From Desulfobacter vibrioformis DSM 8776 (GTDB lineage: Bacteria; Desulfobacterota; Desulfobacteria; Desulfobacterales; Desulfobacteraceae), in contig NZ_JQKJ01000004.1 of assembly GCF_000745975.1 (NCBI RefSeq), positions 62,001 to 126,000 on the forward strand: a stretch of 64,000 nucleotides of DNA. Direction: 5' to 3'. Below the pieces are notes generated by a model. The model saw only the letters and a program-made list of their open reading frames with translations, was not told the DNA's origin and made no database searches. Both the position numbers and the translations under genes were made by a program. Every line of letters starts with the position of its first letter. Position 1 is the first letter of the stretch. Shown here one piece after another: positions 8,862-14,121 of the stretch.

Positions 8862-9175
8862 TGTTATCTCTTGAAAGCACTACATCAAGGTTCCCCGTGC
8901 AGACTGTCTGAGAAAAATACCGTTGAAAAATCTAACTATAAAAAAAGTCAAAAAAAGTAATACCCGAGTGTTCCCTTGTGTTGTGCATCAAATGTTGGCT
9001 ACATACCTAATCAAGGGTGCCATTGGTGTCAAGCTTTTTTAACCGGTCAGTTTTAAAGGAATTTTTATTTAATCGGTCGTGGGTTTAAAATACCTGTCTT
9101 TATTTTGAGGCAGGATCTGTTTTGTGCGAAAAATTAGTGAAACAGGGCAATATGCCTAATATAAAAAATGTATAG
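8862..9175. other. Intergenic region upstream of the liv operon
   Basis: No gene is visible. It presumably carries the liv promoter on the minus strand. There is a short perfect palindrome around 8900-8910 (CAGAC-A-GTCTG read on the minus strand) and two T-rich tracts. No firm -35/-10 pair was found. Confidence 0.4.
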
Positions 9176-9181
9176 TGCATG

Positions 9182-9321
9182 CTCAATGTCATAAAGTTAA
9201 GATGCTTCCGAATTAAAACCATGAAGAGCATGAAGGACATGACGATTGATTTTCCGGCATATATTCTTCATGTCCTTCATGGTGAAATAAAATACTCAAT
9301 GCTTAAGTTTATGACATTGAG
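9182..9321. repeat. Dispersed palindromic repeat family, copy 1 (MITE-like)
   Basis: A 140-bp element with imperfect inverted termini of about 20 bases (CTCAATGTCATAAAGTTAAG at the left, its near reverse complement at the right). It is flanked by the direct duplication TGCATG (9176-9181 and 9322-9327). The interior is an inverted repeat built from 9-base units of the type ATGAAGAGC/ATGAAGGAC. Related copies lie at 11840-11988 and 31504-31646. A long reading frame through it codes only for this low-complexity repeat and is not taken as a gene. Confidence 0.8.
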
Positions 9322-9655: not shown

Positions 9656-10546
9656 CTACTCCATATAGCGTGAACTATTCAACTCACTGGACGACCCAAA
9701 TAAGTCAGGATAAACAGACATAGGCGTTACGCCCAAAATTTGAAGTTGCTTTCGTAGCAACAAAACAGATGATTTTTTAATATTGATCTTAATGAGGTAT
9801 TTTTTAATTTCAGGATTTTCAAACAATGCTTCAATCGGTTGGGGGTCGGTACCGTGAATTGTAAAGCATCCTTTCTGAGTAGTTATTCGAATATTTCCAC
9901 TACTGGCCGGCCAGAAAGCAAGAGGGAAGCTAAGCCGCTCAACTGAAGGTCTGTCATAGGAAGGAAGGGAATCAATTTCCTTGGTAATGAACTGTTTTAT
10001 TAGTTTTCCATTTTTTATATACCCAGGCATCTTTAGACGTAACTGCACAAGAGCCACTTGACTTTCTATAGGGCCATATGATGATAGTTGACCTGTAGTT
10101 AAGCTATTGAGCGCTCCAGGATTCATTACCCAAACAACCCGCTGTACATCCTCGTCAAATGTGCCGCCGCTTACTGCAAAGTAAAGTGCTAAGGCTCCGT
10201 TCTCGGTCCAATCAAGGAGACGGGTAGGAATACCGTAGTGTTGCATGAAACTATAATATTCGCTTGATCGATCTTGGAATCTCTCCGAAGTGTAGTTCCG
10301 GTAGGTTGCAGAAAAGGCCTGATGTATATAATGCTCTTTATACTTGCTTTCCTTGCCAGTATCCGAGTTCTTGACCTTTCGCAGGACTTTGGGCAACAGA
10401 GGATCGTCTCGACCCTGACCACGAAACCAAACATGAGGTTGAGAACCATTCCCTTTTTCGTTTTCCCATTGGCTGAATGATTTAAACACAAAATCATTAA
10501 ACTCGGATATAGATCCCACTGTGCATTCTGTCTGTGATATTTCCAT
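9656..10546 (-). CDS. FRG domain-containing protein
   Basis: A 296-residue protein with an FRG domain (named after its Phe-Arg-Gly motif). WFRGQGRDDPLLPKVLRK lies near residues 43-60 and HYGIPTRLLDWTENGALALYFA near 107-128; both are hallmarks of the family. FRG proteins often sit in defence or mobile islands and their biochemical role is poorly known. The second ATG (10546) is preferred over the one at 10552 because GAGGA lies 6 bases upstream of it. It has no obvious operon partner and is followed by repeat-rich DNA, consistent with a cargo gene of the island. Confidence 0.8.
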   Translation of the reverse strand: MEISQTECTVGSISEFNDFVFKSFSQWENEKGNGSQPHVWFRGQGRDDPLLPKVLRKVKNSDTGKESKYKEHYIHQAFSATYRNYTSERFQDRSSEYYSFMQHYGIPTRLLDWTENGALALYFAVSGGTFDEDVQRVVWVMNPGALNSLTTGQLSSYGPIESQVALVQLRLKMPGYIKNGKLIKQFITKEIDSLPSYDRPSVERLSFPLAFWPASSGNIRITTQKGCFTIHGTDPQPIEALFENPEIKKYLIKINIKKSSVLLLRKQLQILGVTPMSVYPDLFGSSSELNSSRYME

Positions 10547-10552
10547 TATCAT

Positions 10553-10860: not shown

Positions 10861-11028
10861 TCAAGAACAACGAAGCCTTTTCAGTTTTTTCTTTGCATTC
10901 ACGTAAACTATTTTCCCATTTCGCCACTCAGGTATTTCCAAGTCCAGATTTGCTGCTTTTTCGATTGCTTTGATTGCGGCTCTGCGCATTGCATCAAGTG
11001 CAGATTTTGAATTAGATTCATTTTTCAT
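10861..11028 (-). CDS. Small basic protein paired with a zeta-toxin-like kinase
   Basis: A 55-residue frame starting MKNESNSKSALDAMRRAAIK and ending KKLKRLRCS. Its ATG overlaps the stop of the preceding kinase gene (ATGA), and a GGAGG motif inside that gene's 3' end lies 7 bases upstream of it. Arg/Lys-rich, probably one long helix followed by a short EIPEWRNGK segment. Translational coupling to a toxin-like kinase suggests a partner or antitoxin, which is inference. I recognise no named family. Confidence 0.6.
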   Translation of the reverse strand: MKNESNSKSALDAMRRAAIKAIEKAANLDLEIPEWRNGKIVYVNAKKKLKRLRCS

Positions 11029-11552
11029 TGTTTTTCCTCCATGATCAAAGGTTGATCTCCAGAATTATCGAAAACAATCCAGTCATCTACGAGCTGTTTA
11101 TAATGCTTTTGAAAATTATCCCAGCCTCTACTATACCTTCTGATAATCACATCTTCCGGCACACTATGCCCTCCTTGGGCAACCCGGAATCTTACGCGTC
11201 TCACCGCCAGTTCGGCATCGGGCAAATATAAAAAATACAATATGACTTCATAACCAACTGCCCGCCATTTTTTAATTCGATCAATGAAATTCAATCCACT
11301 TAGCGTTGTCTCAAATGCAAATGAAACTTTGTTTGAGGTCAATGTTTCGATACGTTTTAAAAATATTTTCCCCGCTTCTATGGCAATGCTTTCCGGGTTG
11401 AAAGGAGCAAGCCCTTTTGCAATCATATCAGCGTTTATAAAATTTAGGCATTCAGCCTCCACTGGGAGATAGTTCTCTGCAAAAGTGGTTTTTCCCGCCC
11501 CGTTAGGCCCTGCAATAATATAGCATTTTAGGCTTTTATTTTTCGACATCAT
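11025..11552 (-). CDS. Zeta toxin family P-loop kinase
   Basis: About 175 residues from the ATG at 11552 (or 174 from 11549), preceded by AGAAGAG. A Walker A motif, IIAGPNGAGKTT, lies near residues 12-23. FINADMIAKGL and FAFETTLSG follow, the typical zeta-toxin-like substrate region, and RRVRFRVAQGGHSVPEDVIIRRY resembles the lid arginines. Classical zeta toxins phosphorylate UDP-N-acetylglucosamine; short chromosomal relatives have uncertain targets. It forms an overlapping pair with a 55-residue gene. The frame extends further upstream to 11615 but without a good start context. Confidence 0.8.
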   Translation of the reverse strand: MMSKNKSLKCYIIAGPNGAGKTTFAENYLPVEAECLNFINADMIAKGLAPFNPESIAIEAGKIFLKRIETLTSNKVSFAFETTLSGLNFIDRIKKWRAVGYEVILYFLYLPDAELAVRRVRFRVAQGGHSVPEDVIIRRYSRGWDNFQKHYKQLVDDWIVFDNSGDQPLIMEEKQ

Positions 11553-11615
11553 TATCTCTTCTGATTTCAGCCAACTTATTGTGCAAAATATACCGTTTAA
11601 ACTATGATAGAACAA

Positions 11616-11839
11616 GGAGGAACTTCATAAGAATGCTGGGACTGAAAACTCAATAACGCTTGCATCAACCTAAATTCCCCAGGTACTCAGATATTGGGAA
11701 GGATATCCATAATACGATCAAGTAATACCAGGGTCCACAATTATGGTATGATTGAACTCTTTTCGGGGAATTATTCGATCACCACATATTGTATCTACCC
11801 TGAAATATCGAGAAGCAATTTTATATATTATACTCCTGC
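11616..11839. other. Intergenic region upstream of the zeta-like gene
   Basis: No coding sequence recognised. It should hold the minus-strand promoter of the kinase pair. No clear promoter or operator was picked out. Confidence 0.3.
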
Positions 11840-11988
11840 CTCAATGTCATAAAGTTAAGATGCTTCCGAATTAAAACCATGAAGAGCATGAAGGACATGA
11901 AGATTGATTTTCCGGCATATATTCTTCATGCTCTTCATGTCCTTCATGGTGAAATAAAATACTCAATGCTTAAGTTTATGACATTGAG
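11840..11988. repeat. Dispersed palindromic repeat family, copy 2
   Basis: A 149-bp near-identical relative of the element at 9182-9321, longer by one 9-base unit. Both termini are intact (CTCAATGTCATAAAG... and ...GTTTATGACATTGAG). No flanking target duplication is seen, in line with the neighbouring element end at 12251-12267 and a rearranged locus. Confidence 0.8.
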
Positions 11989-12254
11989 CATCACCTGCTC
12001 AAGATGTAATAGAGAAAAAGGATGATAAAAAAAAGCACGAACATAAATTGAATATGACACAGGCAATTTCAAAATCCAAAGATACACTCTTTTTACTTTT
12101 TGAAAGACCTCGTGAAATAATTGAACAGCTAATCCGGCAAATTCATACACTTTTTATGGGAGCAACAGAACCGATTAGACCTGGGCGTAAATTTGAACGA
12201 AAACATAAAGTTGCCAAAAGGGAGCATCATATGAATTTAAAACCTTGCCGTTAA
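11989..12254 (+). pseudogene. Gene fragment, possibly the C terminus of a transposase
   Basis: A frame open from the end of repeat copy 2 gives about 87 residues, including LFERPREIIEQLIRQIHTLF and a basic tail RPGRKFERKHKVAKREHH. It has no good start; an internal ATG is at 12054. The stop codon TAA sits inside a 17-base sequence (12251-12267) identical to the terminal repeat of the dispersed element family. A basic C terminus ending in a terminal inverted repeat is what a transposase 3' end looks like. Family not identified, so this is inference. Confidence 0.4.
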
Positions 12255-12267
12255 CTTTATGACATTG
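12251..12267. repeat. Solo terminal repeat of the dispersed family
   Basis: TTAACTTTATGACATTG matches the reverse complement of bases 9184-9200 of copy 1 exactly, and of the same part of copy 2. It lies 18 bases before the integrase start. Confidence 0.7.
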
Positions 12268-12285
12268 GGAAAAAGGTGAGTTAGA

Positions 12286-13533
12286 ATGGCACAATATAAG
12301 AGTACAAAATATCCGGGGGTGAGATATCGAGAGCATAAAACTCGGAAACATGGAATCCTGCTGGACCAGTATTTTTTTATTCGTTATCAGAAAGACGGCA
12401 GGCGGAAAGAGGAAGGCGTTGGTTGGGCGAGTGAGGGATGGACACCTCAAAAAGTTGCACTGAAATTGGCCGAACTCAAAGAAGCTGCTGCCACAGGTAA
12501 GGGTGAAAGTCGTTTGTCTGAAGCCAGGGCAAAACTTGAAGCCAAAAAGAAACTTGAAAAAAAGGCTGCAATGGAACAGGAGAAACGGGGAATAACCATC
12601 CATGAATTTTTTCACCAGATTTATTACCCGCAGATAAGGAAGGAAAAAACGCAGAGAACATACGAACGGGAAGAGTCTTTATTCAGGGTGTGGATTGATA
12701 AAAATATCGGCAAGCGGACTTTTTGGGATATTGGCAAGGGAGATGTCGAAAGCGTTTTTTATGACATGGTAGACTCCGGGAAAAGTGTCCGGACCGCTGA
12801 ATATGCCATGACGACGTTAAAACAGATATGGCGAGAAGCCAGGGAAGAGGGGTATGCTCCGGAAATGCCCATGGTATCTAAGACCATGAAAAAGAAGATC
12901 AGTCAGAATAATAACGCCAGGATTCGTTTTCTGTCCAGATCAGAAGCCCAGATACTTTTAGATGAGTTACATAAGGTCAGTATCCCCCTTTATGAAAAAA
13001 CATTAATCAGTCTGCATTGTGGCCTGAGAGCTTCCGAAATATTTAATCTGACTTGGTCCCGGGTAGATCTTGAGCACGGCATTTTTAATATCATTGACTC
13101 CAAGGGTGCTGACAGATCCGTGAACATGACAAAGGATGTTTCGGAACTGATGCAGCAGAAAGAAAAGGGCCAATTAAATGAACTTGTTTTTCCGGGTCGG
13201 GAGGGCAAGCCATCAACACAGATCAGCCAGAAATTCAGGGAAGTGGTCAATAAACTGTTTAATCAAGATGTGACGGATCGACGGGAGCGGGTTACCTTCC
13301 ACACCTGCCGGCATACCTGCGCCTCCTGGATGGTAAAGCAGGGGATCAGTCTTTATCTGGTTCAGAAGGTCCTTGGGCATTCCACCATTCAGGTAACTGA
13401 AAGATATTCTCATCTTGCCCCAGACCAATTAAAACTAGCCGCCGATGCCATTGATAGGGCAGTGGGGGAACACCGGGAAGAAAATATCCTGCCATTCAAG
13501 AAAAGGTGCTCACCCGCTAATACTTTGATTTAG
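12286..13533 (+). CDS. Tyrosine recombinase (phage-type integrase)
   Basis: A 415-residue integrase. It has an N-terminal arm-binding type region (KYPGVRYREHKTRKHGILLDQYFFIRY), a SAM-like core-binding domain (about 105-190) and a catalytic domain with Arg248 (HCGLRASEIFN), His339-x-x-Arg342 (HTCRHTC) and the nucleophile Tyr374 (VTERYSHL). It points toward tRNA-Gln, the usual arrangement for an island integrated at a tRNA 3' end. Its last codons (from about residue 407) are encoded by an inserted 153-bp repeat; without that insert the protein would end in FKKKE. Catalytic residues are unaffected. Confidence 0.92.
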   Translation: MAQYKSTKYPGVRYREHKTRKHGILLDQYFFIRYQKDGRRKEEGVGWASEGWTPQKVALKLAELKEAAATGKGESRLSEARAKLEAKKKLEKKAAMEQEKRGITIHEFFHQIYYPQIRKEKTQRTYEREESLFRVWIDKNIGKRTFWDIGKGDVESVFYDMVDSGKSVRTAEYAMTTLKQIWREAREEGYAPEMPMVSKTMKKKISQNNNARIRFLSRSEAQILLDELHKVSIPLYEKTLISLHCGLRASEIFNLTWSRVDLEHGIFNIIDSKGADRSVNMTKDVSELMQQKEKGQLNELVFPGREGKPSTQISQKFREVVNKLFNQDVTDRRERVTFHTCRHTCASWMVKQGISLYLVQKVLGHSTIQVTERYSHLAPDQLKLAADAIDRAVGEHREENILPFKKRCSPANTLI

Positions 13534-13657
13534 AATTAACTTATTATTTCAGATGGTTGGAATAGATAAGTCCGTTGCTTTCACCCTCTGTTTTTCATGG
13601 AAATTCAGAGAATTCGAATGACCAAAATCATAATCAAAGTATTAGCGGGTGAGCACC
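13505..13657. mobile_element. 153-bp MITE with perfect 26-bp inverted termini
   Basis: Bases 13505-13530 (starting GGTGCTCACCCGCTAATAC) are the exact reverse complement of 13632-13657. The element is bounded by the 8-base direct repeat CAAGAAAA (13497-13504 and 13658-13665), a target-site duplication. The 101-base centre has no coding capacity. It landed in the last codons of the integrase and provides that gene's present stop codon. The parent insertion sequence family is not identified; no transposase with these ends is seen here. Confidence 0.88.
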
Positions 13658-13687
13658 CAAGAAAAAGGAATGATAAAAAATATGTGA

Positions 13688-13903
13688 TCATGCAAAAGAA
13701 GGGGCTACATATCTGCACAACTTGAGCGGTGTGAAAAGGCCCTTGAAGTCATTTGGGTACAGGAGGCGTTAAGACGCTTAAAAGTTTATAAATCAGGCCA
13801 TATGAAGAGCAAAGCAAGTGCAGATGTTTTTTTCAATGCACGGGCTAACCTCAAAAAAATAAGTGGGAACCAGAGCATTAAACAAAAGGATAATCATCCA
13901 TGA
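13688..13903 (+). pseudogene. Start-less coding remnant overlapping hicB
   Basis: An open frame without a usable start gives about 71 residues, including EALRRLKVYKSGHMKSKASADVF. This faintly resembles the C-terminal half of small addiction-module components. Its TGA overlaps the hicB ATG (ATGA), as for a coupled gene pair, so it looks like a 5'-truncated upstream gene. The assignment to an antitoxin family is weak. Confidence 0.35.
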
Positions 13904-14121
13904 AAAGATATTTGACAGCAATCATTGAAAAAGAGGGGAGCGGCTACGTCTCCTTGTGTCCAGAACTGGACATAGCCAGCCAAGGGGAAACCGTTTCCGA
14001 AGCAAGGGAAAATCTACAGGAAGCCCTTGAACTGTTTTTTGAATGTGCATCCCCGGAAGAAATAGAGACCCGGCTTAAAGGGGAAATCTATATCACCCAG
14101 ATGGAGGTTGCCGTTGGTTAA
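13900..14121 (+). CDS. hicB: HicB-like antitoxin
   Basis: A 73-residue protein with the HicB fold pattern: a strand with YLTAIIEKEGSGYVSLCPELDIASQGET followed by the helix SEARENLQEALELFF. HicB antitoxins neutralise the HicA mRNA interferase and repress the operon, but this short form has no C-terminal DNA-binding domain. A truncated hicA start follows and overlaps its 3' end, so the system is probably inactive as a toxin-antitoxin module. Confidence 0.75.
   Translation: MKRYLTAIIEKEGSGYVSLCPELDIASQGETVSEARENLQEALELFFECASPEEIETRLKGEIYITQMEVAVG

Follow-up and report, generated by a model that had tools for sequence, protein, structure and literature searches.

A 153-bp MITE at the end of a tyrosine integrase gene in Desulfobacter vibrioformis and its probable IS1-type mover

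We analysed a 64,000-nucleotide stretch of Desulfobacter vibrioformis DNA (the window, C4:62001-126000 in a 4.47-Mb genome of 86 contigs, labelled C) in which a tyrosine integrase gene ends inside a 153-bp repeat. With a probability of roughly 93%, a copy of a MITE family, most likely moved in trans by an IS1-type transposase, inserted in the last codons of the integrase gene and generated an 8-bp duplication. The initial annotation had proposed a non-autonomous transposition, and this is supported by the anatomy of the element, its copies, their duplications, the tails of related integrases and matching insertion-sequence ends. In the proposed mechanism an IS1-type transposase would move the 153-bp MITE in trans, the MITE would have inserted into the last codons of the integrase gene with duplication of 8 bp of target, and stops in every frame of the MITE left end would make the integrase finish in RCSPANTLI instead of its own KE. 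The features of the region, in window coordinates, are as follows.

12286-13533, plus strand: tyrosine integrase gene as now read, 415 aa (open reading frame list; PF00589)
13497-13504, no strand: left target duplication copy CAAGAAAA (sequence comparison)
13505-13530, plus strand: left 26-bp inverted end of the MITE (inverted-repeat comparison)
13531-13533, plus strand: TAG stop now used by the integrase, inside the element
13531-13631, plus strand: MITE core, without a match to the insertion sequences compared
13632-13657, minus strand: right 26-bp inverted end of the MITE (inverted-repeat comparison)
13658-13665, no strand: right target duplication copy CAAGAAAA (sequence comparison)
13666-13673, plus strand: displaced native integrase end, namely the rest of the K codon, E and TGA (joined flanks, relatives' tails)

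Anatomy of the element and the integrase end

The element spans window 13505-13657 and both of its ends are perfect 26-bp inverted repeats (26/26 nt) that extend to 33 nt at 91% complementarity. The exact 8-bp duplication CAAGAAAA adjoins it at 13497-13504 and 13658-13665. At the spacing of the element ends no other perfect 26-nt inverted pair exists in the window, and perfect 20-nt inverted pairs up to 600 bases apart were found at one place, again the element. An exact 8-bp match at 153-bp spacing occurred at 5 of 63,780 window positions. Entered from the left, the element has a stop in every frame within 29 nt, and entered from the right, within 53 nt. The element shows the following features of a MITE: it is short with terminal inverted repeats (153 bp, 26/26 nt), it carries no transposase gene as frames entering from either side all stop within 53 nt, it is dispersed (n=6 on five contigs of its own genome), and an exact 8-bp target duplication is present at three of these six copies, with none at the other three or at a copy in G027, another genome of the genus.

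The PF00589 domain covers residues 215-378 of the integrase (E 1.7e-29). The protein, now 415 aa, terminates in FKK followed by RCSPANTLI and a TAG at 13531-13533. These last nine residues and the stop come from the element, with the R codon straddling the junction between integrase and element. The integrase ends with nine element residues instead of KE because the element has stops in all three frames within 29 nt. When the flanks were joined in silico by removing the element and one duplicate, the protein was 408 aa and ended in FKKKE followed by TGA at 13671-13673. The catalytic domain is upstream of the insertion and unbroken, and the longer tail probably matters little to the enzyme.

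A search of 86 family genomes for relatives of the integrase returned 30 loci (L091-L120, L091 being the gene itself), and tails were compared for 14 of the 30 with 80 bases of downstream DNA viewed. The six most similar relatives (L092 77%, L103 74%, L093 66%, L096 64%, L094 63% and L095 57% protein identity) ended in KKA, KKAL or KQA in the same alignment column as the KKE of the joined flanks. The matched stretch of L096 contains two in-frame stops close to where it begins, and L103 is partial, its single listed stop being that of the tail itself. The remaining eight, at most 55% identical, had other tails, and RCSPANTLI was found in none of the 14. Together these data bear out what the initial annotation had said of this site. 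The perfect 26-bp termini and 8-bp duplication of a 153-bp element were confirmed from the window sequence and the repeat search, and RCSPANTLI and the TAG are read from the element, so that the insert does encode the final codons and stop. A tail shared by related integrases had been named as evidence against an insertion; no such sharing was seen among the 14 compared, and the six most similar relatives resemble the joined flanks. The claim that joining the flanks restores a natural ending held for FKKKE, as those six end alike, but a true empty site, the same locus lacking the element, was not found in the genomes searched, where the comparison was with homologous tails at 57-77% protein identity. 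This counts against the main reading.

Two further observations were made around the integrase. A small gene starting MKRYLTAIIEKEG, with a weak PF21748 match below cut-off, lies 3' of it at window 13900-14121, and by eye a start of the MKRYLTAIIEKEG type was present within 80 bases after 5 of the 14 related integrases (L096, L098, L099, L102 and L103). Integrase and small gene seem to travel together, and the MITE now stands between the two. On the upstream side of the integrase and close to it, about 150 bp are directly repeated (window 9171-9321 and 11829-11988; 93% over 111 nt, 100% over 57 nt), with a weaker partial copy at 12251-12283. The repeat brackets a segment that carries a gene with an FRG domain (PF08867) at 9656-10552 and one of the Zeta_toxin type (PF06414) at 11025-11615. 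This repeat could mark an inserted cassette.

Copies in the genome and in relatives

The genome carries six copies, each exactly 153 bp, at C4 (the window), C8:24585, C8:31025, C23, C50 and C15. The five others are 96-100% identical to the window copy, which shares all 153 bp with C8:24585 and has a single base difference from C8:31025. Exact 8-bp duplications, differing in sequence, were present at C4 (CAAGAAAA), C8:31025 (AGCTGAAT) and C15 (ATAAATGA), and no duplication was found at C8:24585, C23 or C50. G027 has one full-length copy, 83% identical and without a duplication. The family search gave some match in 9 of 86 genomes with the full element solely in the own genome and G027, and the order search, in which two candidates were scored per genome, matched the same two among 389 genomes at E <= 1e-8; no full element beyond these two was found in the 86 family or 389 order genomes (own included). 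The absence of other copies, which the initial annotation had set as evidence against transposition, was thus not observed, with six in the own genome and one in a relative. Its description of the insertion as recent also fits, as the window copy is identical to C8:24585, is one base from C8:31025 and has kept an exact duplication. Counted against the main reading, three of the six own copies and the G027 copy lack a duplication.

As RNA the element forms a long hairpin (-64.6 kcal/mol vs -28.3 +/- 3.9 for 200 shuffles), and this strong fold together with the position at a gene end would also suit a host regulatory or terminator structure that is not a mobile element. We consider such a structure very improbable. 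A scan of 13400-13950 gave no terminator-like or promoter-like site, copies lie at five other loci by unrelated genes, 3/6 copies have target duplications, and the codons of the hairpin end none of the 14 related integrases.

The copy at C8:24585 directly adjoins what is left of a second tyrosine integrase (235 aa, PF00589), the upstream part of which is missing; a deletion next to this element may account for the loss. At the other four own copies the neighbours tested, one each, were a nucleoside deoxyribosyltransferase, Sulfotransfer_1, Glycos_transf_4 and an rve-domain protein. A preference for integrase genes was rejected, a tyrosine integrase being present at 2/6 copies, which is too few, and none of those four neighbours being one. 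At C8:31025 (L003 1095-1653) the copy, which has an exact duplication, sits where a nucleoside deoxyribosyltransferase-like reading frame begins; the domain of this frame is truncated at its front and matches PF05014 from profile position 27 onwards. Transmission by viruses or plasmids was also considered and rejected, with 0 exact matches to the 23-nt left-end pattern in viral_contigs and no match to the MITE in 72,556 plasmid records.

A probable IS1-type partner element

End-only matches were located 264-346 bp from contig ends and ran on into transposase. These revealed five left halves (C10, C15 twice, C16 and C54) and five right halves (C19, C31, C34 and C39 twice) of a resident IS1-type element. 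None of the ten halves has an internal stop and all are cut by contig ends; neither the middle of the element nor an intact transposase gene is in the own-genome assembly. Two more partial transposase matches were found on C44 (open) and C64 (one stop). The 26-nt MITE end is identical to two of the five resident right ends and one base from the other three, and each of the five left ends departs from it at positions 13, 25 and 26.

Three complete elements were available for comparison. The element of Desulfobacter latus AcRS2 (L064, L088) is 1,258 bp with perfect 26-bp ends and the 8-bp duplication CAATTTTT, that of L063, on a contig binned as Pyrinomonadaceae, is 1,251 bp with no duplication, and that of G014 is 1,252 bp with no adjoining duplication. 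A duplication was therefore present at one of three (D. latus), and GGTG or GGTA ends at all three. The L063 and L064 transposases are each encoded in a single frame of about 380 aa and scored 28.0 and 38.6 bits against PF03400, above the gathering cut-off of 24.1. Against NF033558 (NCBIfam IS1) they scored 71.6 and 73.6, below the cut-off of 100 (E 8e-20 and 2e-20). Elements of the IS1 family have ends that begin with GGT and duplications of 8-10 bp, and ISMhu11 belongs to a subgroup with a longer single-frame transposase. In G014 the transposase (L077 279-1530) is split into two overlapping open frames, covering query residues 2-155 and 141-385, which could reflect mutation or frameshifted expression. 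A 10-bp repeat at this element, CCAAAAATGC, adjoins the left end and recurs six bases past the right end.

The full-length insertion sequence with the same ends that the initial annotation had called for was recovered in part: halves are present at the contig ends of the own genome and complete elements in relatives, but none is intact in the own assembly. We infer that the mover of the MITE is an IS1-type transposase and that an intact copy of it is present in the own genome. Several findings count against this main reading. The resident left ends differ at positions 13, 25 and 26 and the ten halves are contig-cut, two of the three complete insertion sequences have no adjoining duplication, the NCBIfam IS1 match is below cut-off, and G027 has one weak transposase-like match (29%, E 3.3e-5). 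That G027 holds the MITE without a good IS1-type partner, and that the own assembly has no intact one, would suit a lineage moved by a transposase of another type, e.g. one since lost from the genome. We regard this as quite unlikely, as the 26-bp MITE ends are identical to 2/5 resident right ends and the duplication length, 8 bp, is that at the D. latus element.

Mini-elements that comprise hardly more than the two ends, left and right, of the resident element, with no clear duplications, were found at C12:49012 (54 bp, L028 1501-1554) and C1:164546 (88 bp, L009 1443-1530). A similar one on C17 (L025, about 1175-1525) has an end interrupted by about 270 bp that look like what remains of a group II intron (RF00029, E 2.4e-5; 35.2 bits where the gathering threshold is 40). 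The existence of such deletion-type elements in the own genome, together with the identity of the last 30 nt of the MITE to the resident right end at C31 and C39, would be in keeping with the MITE being a simple internal-deletion derivative of the resident element, rather than a lineage with a foreign core. We think this unlikely, as both MITE ends are of the right-end type, 0/5 resident left ends match at positions 13, 25 and 26, and the most that the 93-bp core (element positions 31-123) shared with the resident halves or the three complete relatives was a 10-nt chance match.

Departures from the common end sequence of the MITE (n=4) affected both arms in complementary fashion at C50 position 10 and G027 positions 4 and 8, and a single arm at C15 position 8. 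In the resident insertion sequence the two ends differ from each other at three or four positions. A T at position 8 is found on both D. latus ends and an A at position 4 on both G014 ends. The MITE arms might be corrected against each other, probably via the hairpin, with end changes copied across so that the palindrome stays perfect. We hold this idea only tentatively and consider it rather unlikely, as the G027 pair, given the D. latus and G014 ends, may be an older state, and four events are few.

Significance and comparison with known systems

The agreement of the target duplication, the relatives' tails, the sister copies and the matching insertion sequence makes this a clean case. It illustrates how an element whose end closes every reading frame leaves the gene it enters with a short and defined tail. 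Desulfobacter gains a small MITE family with a probable IS1-type partner. By itself the insertion answers no open question. Replacement of protein C-termini by MITEs has been published before (PMC2759123, PMC5896051 and PMC6382973). What is new here is the particular MITE family, the kind being known and the insertion well supported but ordinary. No title among the matches listed named a Desulfobacter MITE (ISfinder and most subscription journals being outside the scope), and the excerpts of IS1-family MITE literature examined stated no IS1-driven MITE and did not give the families of two Sulfolobus movers.

The probable partner element resembles the IS1 family and the ISAba3-like elements (PMC6382973) in its GGTG start, 24-26-bp ends, PF03400 match and, at D. 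latus, 8-bp duplication. Unlike the IS1 family it has a single frame of about 380 aa (L063, L064) and an NCBIfam IS1 score below cut-off. In two published cases, a small mobile repeat removed or replaced a gene end and supplies C-terminal residues, namely RU-1 in ECA3499 (PMC2759123) and QMITE2 in enhC (PMC5896051). The present MITE likewise supplies the C-terminal residues of a gene, whereas RU-1 and QMITE2 are unrelated elements in unrelated hosts with tails of tens of residues as compared to nine here. MITEAba12 of Acinetobacter (PMC6382973) measures 111-114 bp, and its ends match those of an insertion sequence in the same host; one copy adds 31 of its bases, and with them a new stop, to a gene, and 40% of 90 copies have duplications. 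MITEAba12 differs from the present MITE in its end sequence, its mover (ISAba12) and its 9-bp duplications, but both are short MITEs with insertion-sequence ends that provide a gene with a new stop and have duplications at part of their copies.
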